Source: an uncultured OCS116 cluster bacterium
GTDB lineage: Bacteria; Pseudomonadota; Alphaproteobacteria; Rhizobiales; TMED25
NCBI GenBank assembly: GCA_902632055.1
Contig: CACPAS010000008.1
Span: 1 to 46,615 of the forward strand
Direction of reading: 5' to 3'
Length of the DNA: 46,615 nucleotides
A program made the position numbers and the translations under genes. Shown here in pieces: positions 25,386 to 40,191 of this stretch (position 1 is its first letter; each line of letters begins with the position of its first letter). Below the pieces are notes generated by a model. It was not told where the DNA came from. It saw only the letters and a list, made by a program, of their open reading frames with translations, and did no database searches.

Positions 25386-25803
25386 TAAGTATTTAACATT
25401 TTTGGGCCTAATACCCTTTCTTTTTCTGCTAATACTATCGTTTTATCATTTTGAAACAACAGGTTATATATCAAAACTATTTTATGCATACTCCGCAATC
25501 ATCATTTCTTTTATTGCGGGAACCCACTGGGGCATTTGCCTCCACTCGAAAGATGGAAGTAAAAGAACTCTCTTGGAGAGCAATCTGATAACACTTATTG
25601 CTTGGCTCAGTCTATTCTATCTAGGTTTGATAACTGAATTAATCATGATTGGGTGCTTTTTGTACTTGTTGCACGTGGAGCACAGACTCAAAAGGAATGG
25701 CATTGTTGGTACCGTGTATTTTAGTCAGCGACTGCATGCAACTTATGCCGTCATCCTCATTCAAATACTCTTTTACATAAATCGTAATTTTATTATTATT
25801 TAG
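25375..25803 (+). CDS. DUF3429 membrane protein
   Basis: The 142-residue protein is almost wholly hydrophobic, with about five predicted membrane segments: residues about 8-27, 33-55, 68-87, 88-104 and 122-138. The stretch YAYSAIIISFIAGTHWGICL matches the hallmark of DUF3429 proteins (a Tyr-x-Ala-x-Ile-x-Ser-Phe-x-Gly-x-x-x-Trp-Gly pattern). Its function is unknown. I start at ATG 25375, which gives the family length; longer extension upstream is only photolyase sequence in another frame. It overlaps the photolyase end by 11 bases, so the two are translated from one message. Its stop overlaps the convergent amidase stop (TTAG, 25800-25803). Confidence 0.8.
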   Translation: MKTDKYLTFLGLIPFLFLLILSFYHFETTGYISKLFYAYSAIIISFIAGTHWGICLHSKDGSKRTLLESNLITLIAWLSLFYLGLITELIMIGCFLYLLHVEHRLKRNGIVGTVYFSQRLHATYAVILIQILFYINRNFIII

Positions 25804-27230
25804 TCATTATTTGGGGCAGAACAGTCCCATGGATGGTATTTTTCAATTTGAGCCGCTAGGCTTATAAGCGTTGACTCGTCTCCAATTTTTGCAGCAAAAT
25901 GCATTCCTGCAGGCGTTCCATCCTCGAAAACTTGCATTGGAATTGACATGGCTGGACCTCCAGTTTGATTGAATATTGCTGTATGAGGAGCGATTTCACG
26001 AAATAATAGATTAAGGTGTCGGTCTACATCTGTATGATCTGTATGTACTGTGCCCAATGGAAGCTCTTTAATATTAACTGTTGGAGAGAGTATCAAATCA
26101 TACTTTTCAAAGTAATCTGCCATAATACGTCCTATTTTGTGCATATTATTAATTGCTCTCAAATAATCGACTGCAGTATATTTTCGGCCTTCATTCATCC
26201 ATGCCCAATTTAGTGGCTCGAGGTCACTTTCTTTGAGATTAATACCAAGCATCTTTGCTCTATTTTCAAGATTATTTAGTAGATTTATTGCAGGTATAAT
26301 TTTCCAAGCCTCGAGTATCGATTGACCGGATAAATCAATATTAGTTTCTTCAACATGGTGACCAAGATTCTCACAGAGCTGCGCTGTTTTTTCTGTTAAT
26401 TGAATTATATCTGAGTTTAGTTTATTTCCTTCAAAATCGTGGGTCATTAATCCTATTTTTAAATTTTTTGGCTCAATTTGAACAAAATCAAGAAATTTTC
26501 CATTTTGTTTTGGGCTTGTATATGGTTCGCCACGCATTAACTCACTGGATATATCAAGTAACGCTGCGCTATCTCGGACAGACTTAGATAGACAGTGACT
26601 AATTGCCATGCCACCAAGGGCCTCGCCAAGATCTGGTCCACTTGATATCCTTCCACGCGATGGCTTTAATCCAAAAAGACCGCAAAGGGCAGCGGGGACT
26701 CTGATGCTTCCACCTCCATCTGTGGCATGGGCGAGAGGAACATATCCTTGACGAATTGAAGCAGCGGAACCCCCCGATGAGCCACCAGGAGAGTTTGATT
26801 TTTTTAGGGGATTCTTTGTGGGCCCAGAAATTTTTGGCTCTGTGGTGAGCGAAAGTGCTAATTCTGGGGTTTTTGTAAGACCTAGTATAATCAATCCAGC
26901 TTTTTTATAGAGTTTGATTAAGTAACTATCATTTTTTGCAATATTATTATCAAATAGTTTGCTTGATAATGTTGTTGGCAAGCCCTTACATGAAACATTT
27001 AAGTCTTTTAATAAGAACGGTACGCCGTGAAAAGTATCTTCTGGCTGAGATTTTTCTATTGATTTAATGGCATGATCATATGCTTTTGTAGTAATTGCAG
27101 ATATATCCTCATCGTAAGTTTCAATGATACTTATTGCAGTATCTAGAACTTCTCTCACGTTTACTTCTTTTTCTCTTATGAGTTTGGCGATGCCAAGGCC
27201 GTCATAGGATGAGTATTCATGTTTTTTCAT
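25800..27230 (-). CDS. Amidase (amidase signature family)
   Basis: The 476-residue protein is a Ser-cisSer-Lys hydrolase of the amidase signature family. The triad is visible: Lys75 in VPFLLKDLNV, cis-Ser151 in NSPGGSSGGSAA and nucleophile Ser175 in DGGGSIRVPA, the usual 24 residues apart. It is of stand-alone type (no GatB/GatC nearby, and ordinary amidase C-terminus with GGPAMSIPM), so GatA is unlikely. The substrate is unknown; members hydrolyse amides and some esters. It lies nine bases after the monooxygenase stop, as the last gene of a leftward group with formate dehydrogenase, so it may act on a monooxygenase product, which is inference. Confidence 0.9.
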   Translation of the reverse strand: MKKHEYSSYDGLGIAKLIREKEVNVREVLDTAISIIETYDEDISAITTKAYDHAIKSIEKSQPEDTFHGVPFLLKDLNVSCKGLPTTLSSKLFDNNIAKNDSYLIKLYKKAGLIILGLTKTPELALSLTTEPKISGPTKNPLKKSNSPGGSSGGSAASIRQGYVPLAHATDGGGSIRVPAALCGLFGLKPSRGRISSGPDLGEALGGMAISHCLSKSVRDSAALLDISSELMRGEPYTSPKQNGKFLDFVQIEPKNLKIGLMTHDFEGNKLNSDIIQLTEKTAQLCENLGHHVEETNIDLSGQSILEAWKIIPAINLLNNLENRAKMLGINLKESDLEPLNWAWMNEGRKYTAVDYLRAINNMHKIGRIMADYFEKYDLILSPTVNIKELPLGTVHTDHTDVDRHLNLLFREIAPHTAIFNQTGGPAMSIPMQVFEDGTPAGMHFAAKIGDESTLISLAAQIEKYHPWDCSAPNND

Positions 27231-27239
27231 ATGTTTTAC

Positions 27240-28826
27240 CTATTCTAGGGTAAACCCTTCATACGAATTATTCACTATCTTTTCGCATTTTTCGATATAT
27301 ACCGGTAATCCACCAACAAACGGATAAAAAACTCTTTTTTTACCAGTGACATTTGAGCCAAGATACCACGAGTCACAATAATAACGAAGCGTATCATGAG
27401 CGCATTTATCGTTATATTTCCCCCATTCAATTTCAGCGTCTCTATTCGCTTCAATGGAGTGATAAGACTTTGTCTTGATATATCTTATACAACCTGCTAT
27501 CCAGTCAACATGCTGCTCTATTGTAGGTATCATATTCGTCAGGACTGATGGGCTGCCAGGACCAGTTATTGTAAAGAAGTTTGGGAAACCGTTCGTGGCA
27601 AGTCCAAGATATGTTTCAGGCCCATTTATCCATTTATCTTTCAAGTTTATATTATTCTTGCCAATTATATTGATATTATTCAAAGCGCCAGTCATTGCGT
27701 CAAATCCTGTTGCTAATATTATCATATCTATGTCTATCTCTCCGATGCCTTCAATATCAATACCCTTTCTTTTGATCCAACTAATTGGGTTTTTCTTTAA
27801 ATTGATAAGCTCGACATTTCCTTTATTAAATGTATCATAGTAATTCGACTCAATAACAAGCCTTTTACATCCTACAATTGATCTTGGTTTAAGTTCTTCA
27901 GATATTTTTTTATTTTTAACAATCTCATCTATTTTATCTTCAATATATTTTGTGGCTGTTTTATTTGCATCGAGATTATGTGTTATGTCACTAAATGCTG
28001 CCAAAAATGCTAGCCCACCTGCAGCCCACCTTTTATCATATTCTTCTTTCAGCTCTTGTTTTGTGACTTCCAATGCAGATTTTTTATTGTATGTGGTCAG
28101 AAAACCACTTACGAGCTTCTTCGCGTCAGCCCTATTTTTCTTATAGTTTTTCTTAAACTCTTGCACAAAGTCCGGATCAAGACTTCTATTATGAGCAGGA
28201 ACTGAATAATTTGGCGTTCTTTGTAAAACATATAATTTTTTCGCAGATTTTGCGACTTCGGGTATTATTTGCATACCAGATGAACCCGTACCCAATACCG
28301 CGATAGTTTTTTTTGTAAAATCTATTTCTTTTTCAGGCCAAAGTGAGCTTTGATAGCACTCGCCCTCAAAATCCTCGATACCTGCGATTTTGGCATTTAG
28401 AGGTTGGCTAAGGCAGCCAGTTGCCATTATACAAAAGTTCGCATGAAATTTTTCTTCATTTTTACCGGAAATTTCCCATAATTCATTCTTATATATAATA
28501 TTCTTCACATCAAAATTTAATTTGATGTGCGCGTGTAATTGAAAGCGATCTGCTACATGGTTTAAGTAATTTAATATTTCGGGTTGCCGGGCATACTTTT
28601 CTGTCCATTCCCACTCTTGCTGTAGTTCTTCGGAGAATTGATATGAGTATTGCAGACTTTCAGTATCGCATCTGGCTCCAGGATATTTATTCCAATACCA
28701 TGTGCCTCCGATGGATGGGGCCCTTTCGAGGATATGAGCATCAAAGCCATAGCTGCGCAATTTATGAAGCATGTAAAGCCCGGCAAAACCCGCACCAATT
28801 ACAATGACATCATGAGTTGCATGCAT
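27240..28826 (-). CDS. Flavin-containing monooxygenase, Baeyer-Villiger type
   Basis: The 528-residue protein resembles type I Baeyer-Villiger monooxygenases (cyclohexanone/acetone monooxygenase group), FAD- and NADPH-dependent enzymes that turn ketones into esters. It has the FAD motif GAGFAG (11-16), the GGTWYWNKYPGARCDTES segment (40-57), and the NADPH motif LGTGSSGMQ (178-186). The BVMO fingerprint FxGxxxHxxxWP lies at 153-164 but the central His is Gln159 (FEGECYQSSLWP). The rest of the family landmarks, including ATGFDAMTGAL near the C-terminal third, are present. It is 11 bases downstream of formate dehydrogenase and nine upstream of the amidase. The Gln could alter Baeyer-Villiger chemistry. 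Confidence 0.88.
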   Translation of the reverse strand: MHATHDVIVIGAGFAGLYMLHKLRSYGFDAHILERAPSIGGTWYWNKYPGARCDTESLQYSYQFSEELQQEWEWTEKYARQPEILNYLNHVADRFQLHAHIKLNFDVKNIIYKNELWEISGKNEEKFHANFCIMATGCLSQPLNAKIAGIEDFEGECYQSSLWPEKEIDFTKKTIAVLGTGSSGMQIIPEVAKSAKKLYVLQRTPNYSVPAHNRSLDPDFVQEFKKNYKKNRADAKKLVSGFLTTYNKKSALEVTKQELKEEYDKRWAAGGLAFLAAFSDITHNLDANKTATKYIEDKIDEIVKNKKISEELKPRSIVGCKRLVIESNYYDTFNKGNVELINLKKNPISWIKRKGIDIEGIGEIDIDMIILATGFDAMTGALNNINIIGKNNINLKDKWINGPETYLGLATNGFPNFFTITGPGSPSVLTNMIPTIEQHVDWIAGCIRYIKTKSYHSIEANRDAEIEWGKYNDKCAHDTLRYYCDSWYLGSNVTGKKRVFYPFVGGLPVYIEKCEKIVNNSYEGFTLE

Positions 28827-28837
28827 ACTATTTACTT

Positions 28838-30037
28838 CTACATTTTTTTGTACTTAGCTGCTTCTTCGGATCCACTTGTAGCGCTTCCCTTACTATAAGA
28901 ATGAGCGCCTGTACCTGCAAGATTACCATCTTTAACAATTGTATATTCTTCTCTAATTGGATTTCCTTCAAAGAAGCATTCCAAAATTTCTCTGACACCT
29001 GCCGCATAGCGAGCTTGTGCCGATAGAGAGGTTCCTGAAGTATGCGGTGTCATACCATGATTTGGCATAGTTCTCCAGATATGATCATTCGGTGCTGGTT
29101 GAGGGAACCAAACATCTCCCGCATACCCACTTAGCTGTCCGGACTCAAGTGCTTTTGCAATTGCTTCACGATCGCAGATTTTTCCTCTCGCAGTATTGAC
29201 GATATATGCGCCTTTCTTCATTTTGTTAATCAGTACCTCATCGAAAAGATTTTCAGTTTCAGGATGGAGTGGACAATTAATCGTCACTACATCGCAAACC
29301 CCAACGAGTGACTCAACTGAATCATGAAATGTAAGATTTAACTCTTCTTCAACGCTATCTGGGAGTCTGTGTCTATCAAAATAATGTAGATGAACATCAA
29401 AAGGTTTCATTTTTCGAAGTGCATCGAGACCAATTCTACCAGCAGCCACAGTCCCGATATGCATCCCTTCAACATCATATGAACGTTGAACGGCATCTGC
29501 GATATTCCAACCGCCCTGATTAACAATTCTATGTTGATTGTGATAATCTCGGACTAGCGATAGGATCATCATAACAATGTGCTCTGCAACCGATCTCGAG
29601 TTACAATATGTAACTTCAACAACATCAATTCCATTGTCCATTGCAGCTTGTAAATCAACGTGATCAGAGCCAATGCCAGCTGTAATTGCCATTTTAAGAT
29701 TTTTTGCTTTGGCAATCCTTTCTTTTGTTAGGTAAAAAGGCCAGAATGGCTGTGAAATTACAACATCTGCATCAACCAGTTCTGTATCTGCAGTGCAGTT
29801 TTCCCCATCTTTATCGGATGTTACAACCAACTCATGGCCGTTTGACTCCAAGAATTTTCTTAAACCTAATTCCCCTGATACACAGCCTAATAGCTCGCCT
29901 GGAGTATAGTCAATATTTTTCGGTGTTGGCAGCTCTTGACCGTCAGGATATTTATTTAACTTCGGTAGTTCTGATAAAGGATAGTTTTTTGGCATTCCGC
30001 CTTTTGGATCATCGTACAATATGCATAAGACTTTCAT
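28838..30037 (-). CDS. fdh: NAD-dependent formate dehydrogenase (metal-free D-2-hydroxyacid dehydrogenase type)
   Basis: This soluble enzyme oxidises formate to CO2 with NAD+. The 399-residue protein matches the Pseudomonas sp. 101 type along its length, and key residues even keep the same numbers: Asn146 (TYCNSRSVAEH), the cofactor loop GTVAAGRIG (195-203), Asp221 (FDRHRLP, which selects NAD+ over NADP+), Arg284 (NTARGKICDR), Gln313 (WFPQPAP) and His332 (MTPHTSGT). The N-terminal extension typical of bacterial FDHs is present. It probably disposes of formate formed by the divergent CoA-transferase/lyase/Fhs gene group and supplies NADH. Confidence 0.96.
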   Translation of the reverse strand: MKVLCILYDDPKGGMPKNYPLSELPKLNKYPDGQELPTPKNIDYTPGELLGCVSGELGLRKFLESNGHELVVTSDKDGENCTADTELVDADVVISQPFWPFYLTKERIAKAKNLKMAITAGIGSDHVDLQAAMDNGIDVVEVTYCNSRSVAEHIVMMILSLVRDYHNQHRIVNQGGWNIADAVQRSYDVEGMHIGTVAAGRIGLDALRKMKPFDVHLHYFDRHRLPDSVEEELNLTFHDSVESLVGVCDVVTINCPLHPETENLFDEVLINKMKKGAYIVNTARGKICDREAIAKALESGQLSGYAGDVWFPQPAPNDHIWRTMPNHGMTPHTSGTSLSAQARYAAGVREILECFFEGNPIREEYTIVKDGNLAGTGAHSYSKGSATSGSEEAAKYKKM

Positions 30038-30114
30038 TTTCTAATTCCGCTGTTTTGATTATAAAATTAATACTTAATATCATCTTTGGATAGAACCATC
30101 AAATACAAAGTTTT

Positions 30115-30594
30115 TTAAAATAACTTAAAGTCTCTTTTCAGAATCACATGATTAATCAAATATGCCTGCAAAATAATTATTACACAGCCACTTATTAATG
30201 GTGATAATAAAAAATCAAAAGAATAACCACCAAGTATTATCAATATTGGATTACCACCTGCGGGAGGGTGCGTAGAATTAAATAATATCATGAAGAAGAT
30301 ACCCAGCCCTACAGCTATTGGGATAACAACTGTGATACTAATTGAAAGGTAGCTTACAAGAATTGAGTGACATATCAATCCAGCAATTGAGGTAATAATA
30401 TGGCCAAAAAATACATTCCGACCTTTTGCAAATGGGCTCTCGGGGTAACCCAGAATTAATACCATTGACGATCCGAATGAGGCAACAAGAAATAGGCCAT
30501 AGTCAGTTTCGTAAGATAGATAAGTTAAAGTGCCAATTATAAATATAGAAAAAAACCCAGCAATTACTGATTTTTTAAGAGTATCCAAATGCAT
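30115..30594 (-). CDS. HPP family integral membrane protein
   Basis: The 159-residue protein has about four to five hydrophobic segments (residues about 8-27, 30-48, 64-82, 85-104, 120-150). It contains the name-giving motif THPPAGGNPI at about residues 108-117, together with FGSSMVLILGYPESPFAKGRN and a following GHIITS, all typical of the HPP family. Plant HPP proteins move nitrite across the chloroplast envelope; bacterial members are uncharacterised. It is 77 bases upstream of formate dehydrogenase on the same strand, so carriage of a small anion such as formate or nitrite is a reasonable but untested idea. Confidence 0.85.
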   Translation of the reverse strand: MHLDTLKKSVIAGFFSIFIIGTLTYLSYETDYGLFLVASFGSSMVLILGYPESPFAKGRNVFFGHIITSIAGLICHSILVSYLSISITVVIPIAVGLGIFFMILFNSTHPPAGGNPILIILGGYSFDFLLSPLISGCVIIILQAYLINHVILKRDFKLF

Positions 30595-30691
30595 TAAATT
30601 AGTGCCATAATAATTTTTTTTTGTTATAAGTCATATTAGTTGCATTTATAATTTATTCAAAGATTAAAAAAATCGTTTTAGGGGGTGAAAG
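30595..30691. promoter_or_regulatory. Divergent promoter region of the C1/formyl gene groups
   Basis: These 97 bases separate the leftward HPP/formate dehydrogenase group from the rightward NIPSNAP/lyase group and must hold both start regions. A TATAAT occurs at 30647-30652 on the plus strand, about 40 bases before the NIPSNAP start. No clear -35 is seen. A strong ribosome-binding site (GGGGGTG) lies just upstream of 30692. Confidence 0.4.
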
Positions 30692-31006
30692 ATGATATTT
30701 GATCACAGAACGTACACTATACAGCCTGGTAAAACCAATGAATATGTAAAAATATTTGAAGAATTTGCATATCCAGTTGCACAGAAACATGGTCTAAAAC
30801 TTGTGGCCTACTTTGTCAGTAAAGTTGGAACATTAAATCAGGTTGTGCATATATGGAGTTACAAGGACATGATGGAGTTTGAGACCCTGAGAGACGAGCG
30901 CGATGCTGACCCAGATTGGACACGCTACAGACAAAAAATAGCAGGTATGATTGTAGCCCAAGAAGATAAGATAATGGTTGGATCAAATTTTTCACCAATC
31001 AAATGA
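30692..31006 (+). CDS. NIPSNAP family protein
   Basis: The 104-residue protein is a single NIPSNAP domain, a ferredoxin-like dimeric alpha/beta fold. Typical features are the start FDHRTYTIQPGKTNEYVKIFEE, the central segment VGTLNQVVHIWSYKDMMEFE and the RDERDADPDWTRY helix. The biochemical role is unknown; bacterial copies often lie in gene clusters for acyl-CoA or small-acid catabolism. The ATG is preceded by an unusually strong ribosome-binding site, GGGGGTG, about five bases away. It is the first gene of the rightward group, 32 bases before the ThDP enzyme. Confidence 0.88.
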   Translation: MIFDHRTYTIQPGKTNEYVKIFEEFAYPVAQKHGLKLVAYFVSKVGTLNQVVHIWSYKDMMEFETLRDERDADPDWTRYRQKIAGMIVAQEDKIMVGSNFSPIK

Positions 31007-31038
31007 GATAATTAAGATTGGTACAAGAGGATACGGTT

Positions 31039-32766
31039 ATGGTTACAACTACAGAAGATATTTTAAAGAAGCGATCCGAGAATGAAGGAATGATTTCGGG
31101 TGGCCATCTTGTTGCGAAGGCGTTAAAAGGTGAAGGTGTTGACGCAATATTCACACTTTGCGGAGGTCATATAATTGATATATATGATGGTTGTATTGAA
31201 GAGGGTATTAAAATATTTGACTTTCGGCACGAGCAAACTGCCGCTCATGCTGCTGATGGATATGCCAGACAAACAGGGAAGCTAGGCTGTCTGGTAACAA
31301 CTGCTGGACCTGGATTTACCAATGCAATTACAGGTATTGCTACGGCCTTCAGATCTGAGAGCCCTGTGCTTCATATTGGAGGCCAAAGCGCATTATCTCA
31401 GTGGAAAATGGGTGGACTACAAGAACTACCGCACATGGAGATACTAAAACCAATCACGAAATTTGCATCTACAGTTATGTCAACAGAACGAGTTGCTGAT
31501 ATGGTTACAATGGCAGCTAGAGAGTGCTTCAATGGAGCATGTGGTCCTTCTTACCTTGAAATACCACGAGATGTGCTAGACAGAGAAGTCCCTATAGAAA
31601 CAGTAAAGATCCCGAAAAAAGATAAATATAGAGCCTCGGTAAAATCACAAGCGGACCCTTCATCAGTTAGCGGCGTAGTTGAGATTTTAAGAAAATCAGA
31701 GAGACCTGCAATCCTTTTTGGACAACAGGTTTGGCAAAGTAGGAGTCACATTGAAGCGAATAAATTTATAGAAAATTTAAAAATACCTGCATACACAAAT
31801 GGTGCAAGCCGAGGAATGATCAGTGGAAGTAGTAGATACTCATTTGATAGGACTAGGGGGGATGCATTCAAGGAAGCGGATGTTATAATAATCGTTGGGA
31901 CTCCATTTGATTTCAGAATGGGTTATGGGTCAAGAATATCGCCGGATACGAAGATAATCCAAATAGATCAAGATTATTCAAATGTAGGAAAAAATAGAGA
32001 TATTGACTTCGGACTTGTGGGCCATCCAGGTTCTATTCTATCACAAATTATAGACTCCATGCCACAAGCTTACGACTTAGAAATTGATGAAAGCAGGGTT
32101 AAATGGATAGAATTTCTATCTGGTAAGGAGGATGAAAAGTATAAGAAGCTCTTACCAACATTCAAATCCGAAAGTACACCAATTCATCCATATAGAGTTG
32201 CTTATGAAATAAATGAGTTTCTTGATGATGATACAATTTTTATTGGCGATGGCGGCGATGTTGTTACTATATCAGCGCAAGCAGTAAGACCAAAAAACCC
32301 CGGCCAATGGATGGATCCAGGTGCACTTGGTAGTCTTGGTGTTGGAACAGGTTTCGCATTTGCTGCAAAACTTGCAAATCCTCAAAAGGAGGTACTCTGC
32401 TATTATGGAGATGGTTCTTTTGGGATGACGGCCTTTGACATTGAAACTGCTGATAGATTTGGTATGCCATTTATCGCTGTAATTGGAAATAATTCAGCAA
32501 TGAATCAAATTAGATATGGGCAACTAGCAAAGTATGGTCAGCAAAAAGGCAATATTGCTAATAAACTTGGTGATATGAAGTTCTCAGATTTTCCAAAAAT
32601 GTGGGGGGCACATGGTATTGAAGTTCGTGAACCAAATGAAATTAGTTCTGCCCTCAATAAAGCGAGAGAACTTATAAGCAAAACCAAGAAATCTGTTGTC
32701 ATCAATGTATGGGTTGATCCGAATGAGTATGCGCCAGGTACAAAAGCACAGACAATGTATAAATAG
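31039..32766 (+). CDS. ThDP-dependent 2-hydroxyacyl-CoA lyase-like enzyme (acetolactate synthase superfamily)
   Basis: The 575-residue protein has the three-domain ThDP layout of acetolactate synthase, oxalyl-CoA decarboxylase and 2-hydroxyacyl-CoA lyase. The activating Glu65 is in [32 protein letters not shown] follows, and the ThDP/Mg motif runs from [19 protein letters not shown] to the Asn pair at about 457-485. The C-terminus ends [21 protein letters not shown] (last 21 residues, of which [11 protein letters not shown] is most distinctive), recalling bacterial 2-hydroxyacyl-CoA lyases. It lacks the GDSAFGFSGME/NNGGIY form of classical oxalyl-CoA decarboxylase. ATG 31039 is chosen because AGAGG lies eight bases upstream. 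Its partner Frc is the next gene. Likely reaction: 2-hydroxyacyl-CoA to aldehyde or ketone plus formyl-CoA, or the reverse. Confidence 0.75.
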
Positions 32767-32777
32767 GAAACATCAAT

Positions 32778-34028
32778 ATGGAAGCATTAAAAGGCATAAC
32801 AATACTCGATTTCACACATGTACAATCAGGTCCAACGTGCACGCAACTTCTTGCTTGGTTTGGTGCTAACGTAATTAAGATTGAACGACCGGGTGGAGGC
32901 GATATTACCCGCTCGCAGTTGCGTGATAAAGACGGTGTAGACTCATTGTATTTTACAATGCTTAATCATAATAAAAAATCTATCACTCTAAATGTCAAAG
33001 ACGATAAGGGTAAAAAAATATTAGATGATTTAATATTGAAATGTGATGTATTCGTTGAGAATTTTGCTCCCGGTACATTAGATCGAATGGGTTATGGTTG
33101 GGAATATATACACAAATTAAATCCAAGAATTATTCTTGCTTCTGTAAAGGGATTTGGACCTGGGCCATACGAAGATTGCAAGGTCTATGAAAATATTGCT
33201 CAATGCGCCGGGGGAGCTGCATCAACTACTGGTTTTCTGGGTGGTCCGCCTCTTGTTACAGGTGCTCAAATAGGTGATTCTGGAACAGGTTTACACCTCG
33301 CATTGGGAATTGTAACGGCTCTTTTTCATCGAGAAAGATCAGGTCTTGGTCAGAAGGTTGATGTCGCGATGCAAGATGGGGTTGTAAATCTATGTCGCGT
33401 AAAATTAAGAGATTATCAGAGGTTATCTAATGGTCCACTGTCTGAATATAGCCAATTCGGTCAAGGGATACCATTTACTGGTACGACGCCACGCGCAGGA
33501 AACGACTCTGGAGGTGGGCAGCCTGGTTGGATTCTCAAATGCAAGGGTTGGGAGAACGATCCGGACTCTTATGTATACTTCATCACACAAGCACCTGTTT
33601 GGGACAAAATTTGCAATGTTATTGGGAAAGAAGATTGGGTCAATGATCCAGGATACTCTACTCCGAAAGCGAGGTTGGATAAATTATCACACATATTTGA
33701 TACGATAGAAGAGTGGACAATGACAAAGACAAAATTTGAGGTCGTGTCCATTTGTGACCCACTTGGCATTCCGTGTGGACCAATATTATCAATGAAAGAG
33801 ATAGCTCATGACGAATCTTTGAGGCGGAGTGGAACTGTTGTTGAAGTTGATCACCCTGAAAGAGGTAAATATATAACTGTTGGCTGTCCTATTAAATTGT
33901 CAAACTCTAAACCGGATATACAAAGGTCACCCTTGTTAGGTGAGCATAATGAAGAAATTTTGAGAAATTTTCTTAATTATAGCGATGAAGAACTAGATGA
34001 AATTAATAATACTGAAGCGATGAAGTAG
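32778..34028 (+). CDS. frc: Formyl-CoA:oxalate-type CoA-transferase (class III, CaiB/BaiF)
   Basis: Class III CoA-transferases move CoA between carboxylic acids through an aspartyl-CoA intermediate. The 416-residue protein follows Oxalobacter formyl-CoA transferase very closely: [16 protein letters not shown] at the start, [53 protein letters not shown], the catalytic Asp167 in GDSGTGLHL, and the glycine loop [14 protein letters not shown] near residues 245-258. The family loop usually has four glycines before Gln; here it is Ser plus three. Formyl-CoA as donor is therefore likely; the acceptor may be oxalate or another 2-oxo or 2-hydroxy acid. It sits 11 bases after the lyase gene with AGGAAA before the ATG. 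Confidence 0.9.
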
Positions 34029-34037
34029 AGTTTTATA

Positions 34038-34955
34038 ATGCGAATTGTAGTACATGGGCAGCAGGCATTCGGCAGTGCAGTATTGGAGCGACTAATATCA
34101 AATAAAGAGGATATTGTGTCGGTATGTGCCGCACCTAATAAAAAAAATGGATATATAGATCCGTTAGTTGAAACAGCAAACGCATACAATATTCCAGTTC
34201 ATCAACCAACAAGTTGGAAGACAGATGAAGCATATCAGCTAATGGAGTCTTTTGATGCAGATTTATGCGTCATGGCGTATGTAACCCTGATCGTTCCTAG
34301 CGCGATTTTAAATATACCTCGTATGGGATCTATTCAATATCACCCATCGCTACTTCCAATGCACCGAGGTCCCTCTTCAATAAATTGGCCAATATCTATT
34401 GGATCAAAAAAAACAGGGATAACCATATTTTGGCCTGATGATGGTCTCGATACGGGACCTATATTATTACAAAAAGAATGTATCATCGATGAAAATGAAA
34501 CCTTAGGTGGTCTGTATTTTAATAAATTATTTCCTATGGGTGTTCAGGCTCTAGAGGAGTCAATTCAATTAATTAAAGATGGTCATGCACCTAAGATTAA
34601 TCAAAATCTTGATGATGGGTCATATGAAGGCTGGTTTGGTAAAGAGCAATCAAAAATTGACTGGTCAAATCACGCAAATGAAATTCATGCTCTTATTCGA
34701 GCGAGTGATCCTCAGCCTGGTGCTTGGACTATTCATAATGGTAACGAAATAATGTTGTACGATGTAAAAATAATTAATGACCTTCAAAATATACCAGGTA
34801 GTATCTGTGATATTAATGAAGAAGATGGAATACAAATAAGCACAGGTCATGGTACAGTATCTATTCAGAAATTTCGATATAATGGGAAAAAGATGAGCGC
34901 AATGGAATACGCAAAAATGAGTGAGATGACTGTCGGCGATATTTTAGGAAATTAA
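34038..34955 (+). CDS. Stand-alone 10-formyltetrahydrofolate hydrolase/formyltransferase-like protein
   Basis: The 305-residue protein resembles the N-terminal hydrolase domain of 10-formyl-THF dehydrogenase (ALDH1L1) more than Met-tRNA formyltransferase. Shared landmarks are YHPSLLPMHRGPSSINW with catalytic His102, FWPDDGLDTGPILLQKE with catalytic Asp138, and YEGWFGKEQSKIDW near residues 210-223; the length equals that domain plus its C-terminal barrel. There is no aldehyde dehydrogenase part. It could release formate from 10-formyl-THF, or transfer a formyl group between THF and another acceptor such as CoA. It lies nine bases after frc and 33 before fhs, so a simple hydrolase would oppose its own operon partner. 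Confidence 0.85.
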   Translation: MRIVVHGQQAFGSAVLERLISNKEDIVSVCAAPNKKNGYIDPLVETANAYNIPVHQPTSWKTDEAYQLMESFDADLCVMAYVTLIVPSAILNIPRMGSIQYHPSLLPMHRGPSSINWPISIGSKKTGITIFWPDDGLDTGPILLQKECIIDENETLGGLYFNKLFPMGVQALEESIQLIKDGHAPKINQNLDDGSYEGWFGKEQSKIDWSNHANEIHALIRASDPQPGAWTIHNGNEIMLYDVKIINDLQNIPGSICDINEEDGIQISTGHGTVSIQKFRYNGKKMSAMEYAKMSEMTVGDILGN

Positions 34956-34988
34956 AAATAAATATAAATTAAAAAAGAGATTACGAGA

Positions 34989-36665
34989 ATGACAACAGAT
35001 ATAGAAATTGCAAGAGCTGCCAAACCACAAAACATTAATAAGATAGCAGAAAAGCTTGGATTAGGTGAAAACGACATCCAAACATATGGCGGGCTAAAGG
35101 CAAAAGTCTCATTTGACTTCATTAATAACTTAAAAAGCAAGAAAAATGGGAAACTTATTCTTGTCACTGCCATTACGCCAACACCGGCTGGTGAAGGTAA
35201 AACAACAACGACTGTCGGGCTCGGTGATGGCCTTAATAAACTTGGAAAAAAAGCAACAATTTGTATTCGCGAACCATCCTTGGGGCCATGCTTTGGAATG
35301 AAAGGTGGTGCGGCGGGCGGAGGCTATTCGCAAGTTATTCCTATGGAAGATATAAATCTCCACTTCACAGGAGACTTTCATGCTATTGGAATTGCACATA
35401 ATCTTCTCTGCGCAATGGTTGATAACCATATTTACTGGGGTAATGCACTTAACATTGACACACGTAGAATAGCAATCCGTAGAGTGCTTGATATGAATGA
35501 GAGGTCGCTCCGAGAAATAGTTTCCTCGCTTGGGGGTGTTTCAAATGGCTACCCGAGATCCGATGGTTTTGACATTACAGTTGCTTCAGAGGTAATGGCA
35601 ATATTTTGTCTGTCCAGCAGCTTAGAAGAGCTAACAGAAAAACTTGGTAAGATCGTAGTCGCGTATACAAGGGACAAGGAGCCAATAACAGCCGAGCAAA
35701 TTGGTGCAAATAAAGCAATGGCTGTTTTATTAAAAGATGCTCTAATGCCAAACCTAGTTCAGACCTTAGAAAATAATCCAGCATTTGTACATGGAGGCCC
35801 CTTTGCAAATATAGCACATGGATGCAATTCAATCATATCAACAAACTTAGCACTGAAATTATCTGATTTTGTAATTACTGAAGCTGGCTTTGGTGCAGAC
35901 TTAGGAGCTGAAAAGTTTTTTGATATAAAATGCCGCTATCTCACTGAGAAACCATCCGTTGCAGTTGTAGTTGCGACAGTGAGAGCTCTTAAAATGCATG
36001 GCGGGGTAAAGGTTGATCAATTAAAAGAAGAGAATATTGGTGCCGTCTTGACCGGTTCTGCTAACTTAATAAGACATTTGGAGAATATATCAAAATTTGG
36101 TGTGCCGACTGTCGTGTGCATAAATAGATTCATAAATGATACTGACAGTGAGATAGGCGCAATAATCGAAGCAATAGATAAGAGTGGAATTAATAGTAAA
36201 GTGATATTATCTAACCACTGGGCTGAGGGTGGCAATGGTATTACAAATCTTGCGAGTGAAGTCATAAATATATGTGAGAATATTGACTTAGATTTTATGC
36301 ATTTATATGAATTAGATGATGGAATTGAGCTTAAAATAAATAAAATTGCACGGGAAATATATCGCGCAAAAGACGTTGTCTTGAGCAAAAAAGTTAAAAC
36401 TCAAATTAATGATTTAGAAAAGAACGGTTTTAGCGATCTTCCGATTTGTATGGCAAAGACGCAGTATTCATTCTCAACAGATCCAACTTTAAAAAATGCT
36501 CCCATAGATCATGATATTGAAATAAGAGAGCTCAGGTTGTCAGCTGGCGCAGGTTTTATCGTTGCTATAGCTGGCGATATCATGACAATGCCTGGATTGC
36601 CGAGAAAGCCATCTGCAGAAAATATTTATTTAGACGAAGATGGCAATATTGAAGGCTTATTCTAG
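34989..36665 (+). CDS. fhs: Formate-tetrahydrofolate ligase
   Basis: Fhs makes 10-formyl-THF from formate, THF and ATP, bringing formate into folate one-carbon metabolism. The 558-residue protein has the P-loop [18 protein letters not shown] at about residues 64-81, [29 protein letters not shown] with the following [39 protein letters not shown], and the C-terminal [21 protein letters not shown]. All match a functional enzyme. It follows the formyltransferase-like gene and precedes the ketopantoate-reductase-like gene by 17 bases. With the NAD-formate dehydrogenase across the divergent promoter, the locus offers both assimilation and oxidation of formate. Confidence 0.97.
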
Positions 36666-36682
36666 ATAATAGGACAGATAAT

Positions 36683-37717
36683 ATGAAAAAAATATGTGTG
36701 TTAGGTGGAGGGGCTATTGGCTCTTGTGTTTCGGCATCACTCACTGATGCTGGATTAGATGTTTTATTAGTTGATCAATGGGCAGATCATATTAATAAAA
36801 TTAGATCAGATGGACTTACCATAACTACTAAAGAAGGGGAAAAAAATACAAAGGTATCTGCATATCATATGAGTGATTTAGCAAAGTTACAGCCCCAATT
36901 CGATTTTGTATTCATGGCTGTTAAGGCATATGATACCCAATGGGTATCAAAGTTCGCTTCAGTATATTTAAAAGATAAAGGTGTTTTTGTTGGCTTACAA
37001 AATGCATATAATGACGATTTAAATGCGGATATGGTTGGTAAAGAAAATGTAATTGGTGCTGTCGTTGAGTTAAGTTGTGAAATATTTAACCCTGGATTTG
37101 TACAGAGGAACACAGTTCCATCTGGGACTTGGTTTGCTGTTGGGGAGTTAAATGGAGAAATTACTCCAAGACTTAAAGAGGTCCAGAATATTATGTTAAA
37201 TGTTGGCAAATGTGATCTAACTGACAATATTTATGGGGCAAAATGGACCAAGCTAATTGCGAATTCAATGACATGCCCATTTTCATCTTTGAATTTGAAA
37301 AATTGGGAAGCGGTAAAATTGCCTGGAATGTTTGATTTCTCGGTCGGGGTTGGTAGAGAATCTTTCAAGGTTGGAAAAGCACTAGGCTATATGATTGAAC
37401 CACTTTTTGGTCTGACAAATGAGGATATCGGGAATGCTGGTGAAGATGCTGCTGAACTTGTTATGAAAAAAATGGTTAAAGATGTTGGTCCCAATGCAAG
37501 GACACATGCAGCTCAAGACCATGTTAAAGGACGGAGAAGCGAGATTGAGTTTATTAACGGCAGAGTTTCAAGTGAGGGGCGGAAACTAGGCATTTCAACG
37601 CCATATAATGATGCTGTTGTAGAAATCGCTAAAATGACACACAGAGGTGAAATAGATTTAGATCCGTCAAACACTAATATTTTATTTAAAAAACTAGAAG
37701 AGCTTATTAAAGAATAG
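36683..37717 (+). CDS. Ketopantoate reductase (ApbA/PanE) family protein
   Basis: The 344-residue protein has the N-terminal Rossmann motif GGGAIGSCVSASL at residues 8-20, the MAVKAYDT segment of PanE relatives (about residues 76-83), the GAKWTKLIANSMTCPFSSL helix with the conserved Lys/Asn pair, and a C-terminal helical domain. It is longer than ordinary PanE (about 300 residues). True PanE reduces 2-dehydropantoate with NADPH; many paralogues act on other 2-oxo or hydroxy acids. Being the last gene of the formyl-CoA/formate operon (AGGAC before the ATG), it may handle a 2-hydroxy acid of that pathway. Its stop abuts the convergent cinA stop. Confidence 0.8.
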   Translation: MKKICVLGGGAIGSCVSASLTDAGLDVLLVDQWADHINKIRSDGLTITTKEGEKNTKVSAYHMSDLAKLQPQFDFVFMAVKAYDTQWVSKFASVYLKDKGVFVGLQNAYNDDLNADMVGKENVIGAVVELSCEIFNPGFVQRNTVPSGTWFAVGELNGEITPRLKEVQNIMLNVGKCDLTDNIYGAKWTKLIANSMTCPFSSLNLKNWEAVKLPGMFDFSVGVGRESFKVGKALGYMIEPLFGLTNEDIGNAGEDAAELVMKKMVKDVGPNARTHAAQDHVKGRRSEIEFINGRVSSEGRKLGISTPYNDAVVEIAKMTHRGEIDLDPSNTNILFKKLEELIKE

Positions 37718-38964: not shown

Positions 38965-40191
38965 TTACGTCCTTCCACTATCTAATTTTAGGTACCTAAA
39001 ACCAATGAGATACCAAAATAATACCATAATTTGGATAGCTAATATTATCACAAAACTTACATTATATGCCATTGGGTTATATGTTATTCCATTAATAAGC
39101 GGGAATAAATCTATTACGACGCCTACAAGCCATTGAATAAAAAATGCGATTACAAAAGTACCAAGGTTGACAATAGTATTTGCTCGTGATGACAAAGACA
39201 TTCCAAATTTCGCTGTTACCCAAGGATAAGATAGAATACCCCCCTGACCAGTCATAGCAAAAATAATCCAAAAGTAGGCCCCAATATTTGGAGAAAAAAA
39301 GATAATTGGTATTAGAGAAAATATATGAATGATTAAAATTATTGTAAGAATTTTTAGAATACCAACATTAAATTTACCAAGTATTTTAGCTGTTAAACCA
39401 CTCAAGAAAATACCGGATATTGCAGCTATTGCATTTATGGTTAATCCAGTTGCAACATCATCTCGACTATAATAAGCCACATTGCTGAACCAAGGTCCAG
39501 CCCATAATGTTAACAAGGCAATATGTGAACCACCTGTAATCCAAACCAAAGGACCTAAGCGCCATATGGATGGATCGCGTAAAACTATTTTTAGATCTCG
39601 CAATCGATCAATTACAGGTTTTGAGTTATCTGTGTATCCCTGCTTTGGAATTAGGATATATGTTAAAAAGACGACAATAAAGATTAAGATAATAAATACT
39701 CCATAGGTTCCTCTCCAAGTGAAGAAATTAAGTAAGTATTCAGTGGGCCAGCTTGTGACGAGTAATCCGACTTGACCCGCGCTCATGATTATTCCATTTC
39801 CAAGCGCTGCATTTTCAGGTTTTAAATACATGCTAACGGCTCGAAATCCACTCATTAACGATCCTGAGAAACCAACCCCTATCATTAATCTGGCAAATGT
39901 CATTACATAGATATTTGAGCTCAATGCAAAAACAATACAACCAACTGCAGCAAGCAGTAGAAGGGTAATCTGTACTTTTTTTGGGCCATGACTATCCAAA
40001 TAAACACCGAGTGGTATTTGTGCGAGCGCATGAGCTATTAACAATGTTGATGTTAGGAAACCTAACGAGGAAGCCGTGAGATTAATATCAGCAATTAAAT
40101 TTGGAGCAAGTATCCCATTAATTGACCGAAATATTATAGCAAGTAGATATCCAAGTATGAATATTGTGATTATTAATACAGATTGTTTCAT
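38965..40191 (-). CDS. Major facilitator superfamily transporter
   Basis: The 408-residue protein has about twelve hydrophobic segments in two halves. The loop GVYLDSHGPKKVQ after the second helix is the MFS motif A, and FARLMIGVGFSGSL in helix 4 is like nitrate/sugar-phosphate-type members. A WRGTYGVF segment around helix 6 also supports MFS. The substrate cannot be inferred. It lies 47 bases after the betaine ATPase gene on the same strand and five bases before cinA, so it could be carried on a tail of the ABC transporter message. Confidence 0.85.
   Translation of the reverse strand: MKQSVLIITIFILGYLLAIIFRSINGILAPNLIADINLTASSLGFLTSTLLIAHALAQIPLGVYLDSHGPKKVQITLLLLAAVGCIVFALSSNIYVMTFARLMIGVGFSGSLMSGFRAVSMYLKPENAALGNGIIMSAGQVGLLVTSWPTEYLLNFFTWRGTYGVFIILIFIVVFLTYILIPKQGYTDNSKPVIDRLRDLKIVLRDPSIWRLGPLVWITGGSHIALLTLWAGPWFSNVAYYSRDDVATGLTINAIAAISGIFLSGLTAKILGKFNVGILKILTIILIIHIFSLIPIIFFSPNIGAYFWIIFAMTGQGGILSYPWVTAKFGMSLSSRANTIVNLGTFVIAFFIQWLVGVVIDLFPLINGITYNPMAYNVSFVIILAIQIMVLFWYLIGFRYLKLDSGRT

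Follow-up and report, generated by a model that had tools for sequence, protein, structure and literature searches.

A formyl-CoA-centered gene module of OCS116-cluster bacteria with a putative second, non-orthologous oxalyl-CoA decarboxylase

The window studied here, a stretch of 46,615 nucleotides (contig CACPAS010000008.1 of assembly GCA_902632055.1) from an uncultured OCS116 cluster bacterium, carries a compact gene module between positions 28,838 and 37,717, for which an earlier note had proposed a formyl-CoA-centered catabolic role. Our analysis supports a module centered on formyl-CoA, with oxalate and not a 2-hydroxy acid as the best-supported substrate. Judged from gene sequences and their context, the module very probably degrades oxalate, with its thiamine diphosphate (ThDP) enzyme, hereafter X, acting as a second oxalyl-CoA decarboxylase that is not orthologous to the canonical one (OXC). 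X does not belong to the OXC family and its context points to OXC; thus, it is likely that X works like OXC from outside that family. The source assembly comprises 1.03 Mb at 77% completeness, and its closest named relatives are OCS116-cluster/Rhodobiaceae marine bacteria.

Results and Discussion

The module and the proposed pathway

The genes listed in the note were recovered as open reading frames with matching families:

28838..30037, minus strand: NAD-dependent formate dehydrogenase, single subunit (NF005750, 672.2 bits, cut-off 329)
30692..31006, plus strand: NIPSNAP-family protein, first gene of the plus-strand operon (PF07978, 86 bits)
31018..32766, plus strand: ThDP enzyme X, proposed non-orthologous oxalyl-CoA decarboxylase (TPP enzyme N, M and C domains)
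32778..34028, plus strand: Frc, formyl-CoA:oxalate CoA-transferase (TIGR03253, 689.6 bits, cut-off 504.2)
34038..34955, plus strand: FmtL, a formyltransferase resembling the hydrolase domain of 10-formyl-tetrahydrofolate dehydrogenase (FDH; Formyl_trans_N and Formyl_trans_C domains)
34989..36665, plus strand: Fhs, formate-tetrahydrofolate ligase (NF010030, 882 bits, cut-off 652)
36683..37717, plus strand: PanE/ApbA-like dehydrogenase (PF02558, ApbA, and PF08546, ApbA_C)

The plus-strand operon runs in the order NIPSNAP, X, Frc, FmtL, Fhs and PanE-like, with gaps of 9-33 bp that bear out the tight spacing noted before, and X may start at TTG 31018 or at ATG 31039. In the scheme that we favor, Frc would use formyl-CoA as the CoA donor for oxalate, yielding oxalyl-CoA and releasing formate, and X would convert oxalyl-CoA to formyl-CoA plus CO2, taking over the role of OXC by a different active site. 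The NAD-formate dehydrogenase would then oxidize formate to CO2. FmtL and Fhs probably interconvert formyl-CoA and formate through 10-formyl-tetrahydrofolate, feeding folate metabolism or making or saving ATP, and the PanE-like protein may serve in oxalyl-CoA reduction or formation. The predicted decarboxylation of oxalyl-CoA by X is deduced from its replacement of OXC.

X lies outside the OXC family

In profile searches, Frc, the formate dehydrogenase and Fhs exceeded the curated cut-offs of their families, with Frc also scoring 539.6 bits against E. coli YfdW, and X exceeded none of those shown here. It scored 231.4 bits against canonical OXC (TIGR03254, cut-off 739.4), 339.6 bits against the actinobacterial 2-hydroxyacyl-CoA lyase (HACL) family NF058623 (cut-off 600) and about 423 bits against acetolactate synthase PRK05858 (NF004516, cut-off 587). 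A tree was built from 66 ThDP proteins, with near-copies left out; long branches were flagged in it and long rows are of unsure placement. Here, the 20 OXC rows group together in a single clade (100/100), whose sister is a HACL. X falls outside this clade, on the side of the actinobacterial 2-hydroxyisobutyryl-CoA lyase AcHACL (99/92), which by sequence and tree is its nearest characterized relative. The formyl-CoA-releasing assembly that includes X is separate from the acetolactate-synthase-like paralogs of OCS116 itself (98/97), and the description of X as lyase-like in the note is upheld by this separation and by the score below the acetolactate synthase cut-off.

Residues near the cofactor of OXC (I48, Y134, E135, A415, Y497, E567 and S568 in MeOXC numbering, taken from the accessible part of PMC8411744) are present in all 20 OXC rows. 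At I48, Y134, E135, A415 and Y497, the X rows instead hold G, L, Q, G and N (29/29), at E567 they have Lys in 27/29 and Glu in none of the 29, and at S568 Ala or Asn in 26/29 and Ser in 2/29. The absence of the OXC active-site residues rules out X as a canonical OXC. The ThDP glutamate, which glyoxylate carboligase lacks, is found in 29/29 X rows and, together with the scores and the tree, eliminates acetolactate synthase and glyoxylate carboligase as identities of X. The C terminus, which forms a lid in the known structures, has in X the sequence APGTKxQTMYK or a close variant (QTMYK in 24/24 aligned X rows) and differs from that of OXC. As for AcHACL, its catalytic acid/base is given as Glu493 in the accessible text of PMC8760513, a position that is Ile in 29/29 X rows. 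A structural model of X (mean pLDDT 85.5) was closest in fold to HACL, OXC, benzaldehyde lyase and AcHACL (Z 42-39), but glyoxylate carboligase and acetolactate synthase followed just behind (Z 38-39), and the fold comparison was thus non-discriminating.

More distant ThDP relatives, 33-39% identical to X, were encountered at three loci, L118 (9678-11237), L119 (9716-11317) and L124 (10042-11670), where no Frc was found within 18-20 kb. In an OCS116 genome (G000, contig C2, locus L002), the match to a ThDP paralog holds two internal TAA stops, and it may represent a pseudogene or an assembly error.

X and OXC replace each other beside Frc

We then assessed the distribution of both decarboxylases across 199 genomes of an order-level sample (E<=1e-120 for OXC and X, 1e-130 for Frc). 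OXC was detected in 40 genomes (38 above cut-off), X in 18 and Frc in 59, with no genome holding OXC and X together. Frc accompanied X in 18/18 genomes and OXC in 39/40, the exception (G124) being 71% complete, and only two genomes, G082 and G153 (61% complete), had Frc with neither decarboxylase. Both states occur inside one genus (OXC in G055 and G157, X in G128), and in a set of 13 X-bearing genomes OXC was above its cut-off in none. In a phylum-level sample of 339 genomes, partly overlapping the former, the 27 Frc genomes are the exact union of the 24 OXC and 4 X genomes. In G082, which is without OXC or X at these thresholds, Frc (L153) adjoins FdsA/FdsB-like genes, a possible third partner.

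The same picture emerges at the level of the loci. Up to 20 kb around most Frc loci was fetched and the neighbors mapped from composition-filtered open reading frames and tblastn maps; 104 ThDP loci were counted, 51 with X and 53 with OXC, after two duplicates had been dropped. A same-strand Frc lies within 2.5 kb in 49/51 X loci and 49/53 OXC loci. For the comparison of neighbors we retained those 78 loci that had such an Frc and were covered for 3.5 kb on each side. Outside OCS116, the same companions recur near X and OXC: FmtL (10/28 X loci, 20/40 OXC loci), acyl-CoA ligase (11/28 and 9/40), the oxalate/formate antiporter OxlT (14/28 and 15/40) and GntR (15/28 and 31/40). Even entire orders run in parallel, as in GntR-X-Frc-FmtL-Fhs and GntR-OXC-Frc-FmtL-Fhs. 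Examples include oxlT-X-frc in Phyllobacterium zundukense, with X annotated as 'thiamine pyrophosphate-binding protein', X-frc-acetate-CoA ligase-OFA transporter in Streptomyces fungicidicus, and Cupriavidus metallidurans CH34, in which a 67% identical X is found with PanE, GntR, Frc, ligase and OxlT. For canonical oxc, a marine Paracoccaceae plasmid displays regulator-oxc-frc-fmt-fhs.

Next, an Frc tree was exploited to follow the partners over time. It comprised 76 proteins, 38 beside X and 38 beside OXC, leaving out near-copies, duplicates, short rows and any Frc separated from its ThDP gene by over 700 bp. At least 12 switches of partner are required on this tree, 10 of them being forced by well-supported branches, and shuffled labels needed about 26, so the partners are clustered but have been exchanged. 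Transfer of Frc between lineages may contribute to the count; either way, kindred Frc proteins work with both partners. That the two trade places next to shared Frc lineages speaks for a common reaction of X and OXC, and the replacement case draws its strength from the Frc tree and from the counts conditioned on Frc.

Several observations weigh against this assignment of X. The closest characterized enzyme acts as a lyase instead of a decarboxylase, and with the OXC residues missing, X would have to rely on other proton donors, for which His51, Gln135 and the C-terminal tail are candidates. The zero overlap of X and OXC over all 199 genomes is weak taken alone (0.014, which, as the counts come from related genomes, is not a true p-value), and G632 of the phylum sample has both enzymes, each beside its own Frc. 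Two X loci are without Frc in the stretch read, one at a contig end (L039) and one being a second copy in G486 (L182). Moreover, no oxalate transporter was recognized among the scanned genes of the window, and NIPSNAP, the Baeyer-Villiger-type monooxygenase (BVMO) and the amidase encoded nearby are not explained by the oxalate scheme. As to G486, its two X copies (L181 and L182) have equal scores (877.1 bits each) and are separated by about 16 kb; two Frc genes follow one of them, and the other has FdsB/FdsA-like genes and no Frc in the stretch.

FmtL and Fhs as a proposed folate-borne shunt

FmtL is a proposed formyl-CoA/tetrahydrofolate formyltransferase, an assignment that leans on its sequence relatives and on its genomic company. 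The best solved relative is the FDH hydrolase domain (197.7 bits), followed by E. coli Fmt (152 bits), and the score against methionyl-tRNA formyltransferase TIGR00460 is 162.4 bits, under the cut-off of 201.5. A second protein, 28-32% identical to FmtL and presumably the housekeeping Fmt, exists in 7/8 OCS116 genomes and was not found in the incomplete G000. The score and this separate gene dismiss FmtL as the housekeeping methionyl-tRNA formyltransferase. The His106-Ser108-Asp142 triad of FDH is present in 57/57 FmtL rows, and position 104 is Gln in 38/57 and Cys in 19/57, the Ile104 of FDH being encountered in none. The FmtL model (94.3) agrees equally well with Fmt (Z 36.4, rmsd 1.6, 301 aligned) and with the hydrolase domain of FDH (Z 35.5, rmsd 1.9, 290 aligned), and less well with HypX (Z 22.5, rmsd 4.1, 266 aligned). 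According to the accessible portion of PMC6802093, the FDH domain passes formyl from formyl-tetrahydrofolate to a 4-phosphopantetheine thiol, and the homologous N-terminal domain of HypX is proposed there, without direct proof, to pass formyl to CoA.

The neighbors are congruent with this proposal. Among the 78 loci, Fhs lies within 7 kb in 25/40 loci with FmtL and in 0/38 without it. FmtL and ADP-forming acyl-CoA ligase never coincide: 40 loci have FmtL only, 20 ligase only, none both and 18 neither, and outside OCS116 the split is 30, 20, 0 and 18, respectively. This mutual exclusion suggests an ATP-linked interconversion of formyl-CoA and formate by FmtL and Fhs via formyl-tetrahydrofolate, so that FmtL plus Fhs on the one hand and the ligase on the other would both catalyze formyl-CoA + ADP + Pi <-> formate + CoA + ATP. 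This reaction might run so as to save energy, or else to replenish the formyl-CoA for Frc when oxalyl-CoA drains to glyoxylate. The 18 loci with neither imply that neither is required beside the Frc-decarboxylase pair. Tentatively, and at somewhat less than even chances, we extend the proposal to a combined one: X as a second, independently evolved OXC, swapped with the classical enzyme at least 10 times, and FmtL as a formyl-CoA:tetrahydrofolate formyltransferase, constituting with Fhs a folate-borne energy-coupling shunt that replaces the ADP-forming acyl-CoA ligase in oxalate operons.

Alternative substrates and reactions

The reading closest to the one preferred here is that the operon mainly oxidizes glyoxylate, derived from glycolate, via oxalyl-CoA, with PanE as CoA-acylating glyoxylate dehydrogenase, X as decarboxylase and Frc as release step. 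It is compatible with oxalate degradation, as the reaction of X is the same and only the physiological substrate differs; we nevertheless consider it rather unlikely. Such a route has been demonstrated genetically in Cupriavidus necator, where a probable ApbA2 is encoded close to frc-oxc (accessible part of PMC7486775), and the oxalyl-CoA reductase of M. extorquens is described as a reversible PanE-type enzyme (PMC9485241, likewise in part). The OCS116 operon does include a PanE gene, and 7/8 OCS116 genomes encode GlcD-like proteins below the family cut-off. Against this stand the absence of GlcD matches above cut-off in all eight genomes, G000 having no match at E<=1e-60, and the divergence of the window PanE. 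For the latter, identity to the ApbA-type genes found at other oxalate loci amounts to only 25-30% (34-35% for genes in the vicinity of two canonical OXC loci), and the score against NF005089 is 119.6 bits (cut-off 223), as compared to 505-533 bits for three genes of other oxalate loci. Being a superfamily member at such low identity to its ApbA-type counterparts, the window PanE is thus only plausible as an oxalyl-CoA reductase/glyoxylate dehydrogenase.

The earlier note itself had favored a cycle in which a Frc-type transferase charges a 2-hydroxy acid from formyl-CoA and X, as a 2-hydroxyacyl-CoA lyase, cleaves the product into a carbonyl compound and formyl-CoA, or runs in reverse for one-carbon assimilation. 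The kinship to AcHACL, with G-G-H and L-Q active-site letters common to both, speaks for this cycle, as does the BVMO gene after the formate dehydrogenase, which could oxidize a ketone. It is nonetheless improbable: the catalytic E493 of AcHACL is Ile in every X row, Frc scores far over the cut-off of the oxalate enzyme, all 18 X genomes of the order sample are without an OXC that could serve that Frc, OxlT lies near half of the non-OCS116 X loci (14/28), and X and OXC swap beside the same Frc lineages. The 2-hydroxy acid was hence not sustained as substrate, nor was the reverse carboligation, with X standing in the place of OXC, often near an oxalate/formate antiporter. Least credible, and in our view very improbable, is X as a carboligase after oxalyl-CoA reduction, for example on glyoxylate, with Fhs and FmtL making formyl-CoA for Frc. 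The PanE-like gene at the operon end and PanE/ApbA-type genes near 9/28 non-OCS116 X loci would suit it, but such genes were not found near 19/28, nor FmtL near 18/28, of these loci with Frc; in addition, the ThDP glutamate is invariant in X, unlike in glyoxylate carboligase, and its exchange with OXC points to a shared reaction. Plain oxalate degradation, which the note had kept as main alternative, fits best, with the amendment that the decarboxylase is not the known OXC.

In another alphaproteobacterium (L127, 9958-13263), an AcHACL-like lyase (55% identical) is encoded near a distant CoA-transferase (27% to Frc), a pair that is a candidate for the original 2-hydroxy-acid idea.

Conservation of the gene set

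The linkage expected by the note extends to other genomes. ThDP-Frc adjacency is seen in 25/26 related loci on named genome contigs, the miss (L039) being the contig end mentioned above, and NIPSNAP-ThDP-Frc-FmtL-Fhs is retained in 12/12 OCS116-family loci among the 26. In a sister genus (L032 and L033), a two-subunit FdsB/FdsA-like formate dehydrogenase, with Pfam read on L032 only, is inserted between Fhs and PanE, and the NAD-dependent enzyme was not found in the stretch read; the presence of a formate dehydrogenase inside the operon corroborates formate as a product. Beyond OCS116, ThDP-Frc-FmtL-Fhs also occurs in Variibacter, Xanthobacteraceae and Acidobacteriota bins. A transporter of a single family is situated near 7/12 non-OCS116 loci, and three of these that were scanned reach 513, 673 and 584 bits against TIGR04259 (oxalate/formate antiporter, cut-off 335).

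Two bins named Acidobacteriota carry X-Frc loci (L040 and L041), in which X of L040 and both Frc proteins cluster with alphaproteobacterial ones, indicating recent transfer or a binning error.

Relation to known systems

The module shares with Frc-OXC operons (E. coli yfdW-yfdU, Oxalobacter frc/oxc and Methylorubrum oxc) the Frc family and the intermediates formyl-CoA and formate, and with the canonical OXC loci mapped here the gene order and neighbors. It departs from them in that the decarboxylase belongs to a different ThDP clade and has another active site, and in that OCS116 adds NIPSNAP, the NAD-formate dehydrogenase and a different PanE-like gene. AcHACL (PDB 7pt1) resembles X in the ThDP glutamate and the G-G-H and L-Q letters, and differs in E493, in the QTMYK end of X and in its linkage to a 2-hydroxyisobutyric acid (2-HIBA)-CoA ligase (PMC7176365, accessible part) instead of Frc. 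FmtL has the fold of the FDH/ALDH1L1 hydrolase domain and of the HypX N-terminal domain, and the H-S-D triad of FDH, but it is stand-alone in oxalate operons and holds Gln or Cys, not Ile, at position 104. M. extorquens PanE2 and C. necator ApbA2 are likewise PanE/ApbA superfamily members of oxalate loci; the window protein is set apart by its low identity to the ApbA-type neighbors of other loci.

A recent survey of oxalate degraders used oxc with key residues and treated frc as unspecific and ubiquitous (PMC10192776, accessible portion). Such reliance on the classical OXC residues means that X-type organisms would be missed, among them marine OCS116 bacteria, Phyllobacterium, Cupriavidus metallidurans and Streptomyces. 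The repeated replacement of the ThDP decarboxylase would represent a natural experiment on building one reaction twice, X may offer new scaffolds for formyl-CoA chemistry, and, if the reading of FmtL is true, formyl-CoA would be linked directly to folate metabolism. Searches of the open-access literature yielded no description of a second OXC or of a formyl-CoA/folate transferase in oxalate loci, as far as the accessible text goes, and among the papers listed for the latter the HypX paper was the only one whose abstract names such a transfer.

Flanking genes

The divergent layout described in the note was correct for the genes that it listed; it left out the HPP gene and did not extend the minus-strand operon, which runs HPP, NAD-formate dehydrogenase, BVMO and amidase, to the latter two:

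30115..30594, minus strand: HPP transmembrane protein (PF04982, 114.8 bits)
27240-28826, minus strand: BVMO, downstream of the formate dehydrogenase (gap 11 bp)
25800-27230, minus strand: amidase, downstream of the BVMO (gap 9 bp)
38965-40191: major facilitator superfamily (MFS) gene

The MFS gene had no NCBIfam match at E<=1e-15; OxlT-type antiporters (TIGR04259) are encoded at other X loci. BVMO and amidase are retained in most OCS116 loci extending to them, with BVMO not found in L029, and the NIPSNAP protein is 80-94% identical among OCS116-family loci. The HPP gene, located at the divergent promoter region, adjoins the module in loci of OCS116 genus 1 that reach that far. Plastid HPP proteins transport nitrite, and a role in anion transport is thus conceivable.

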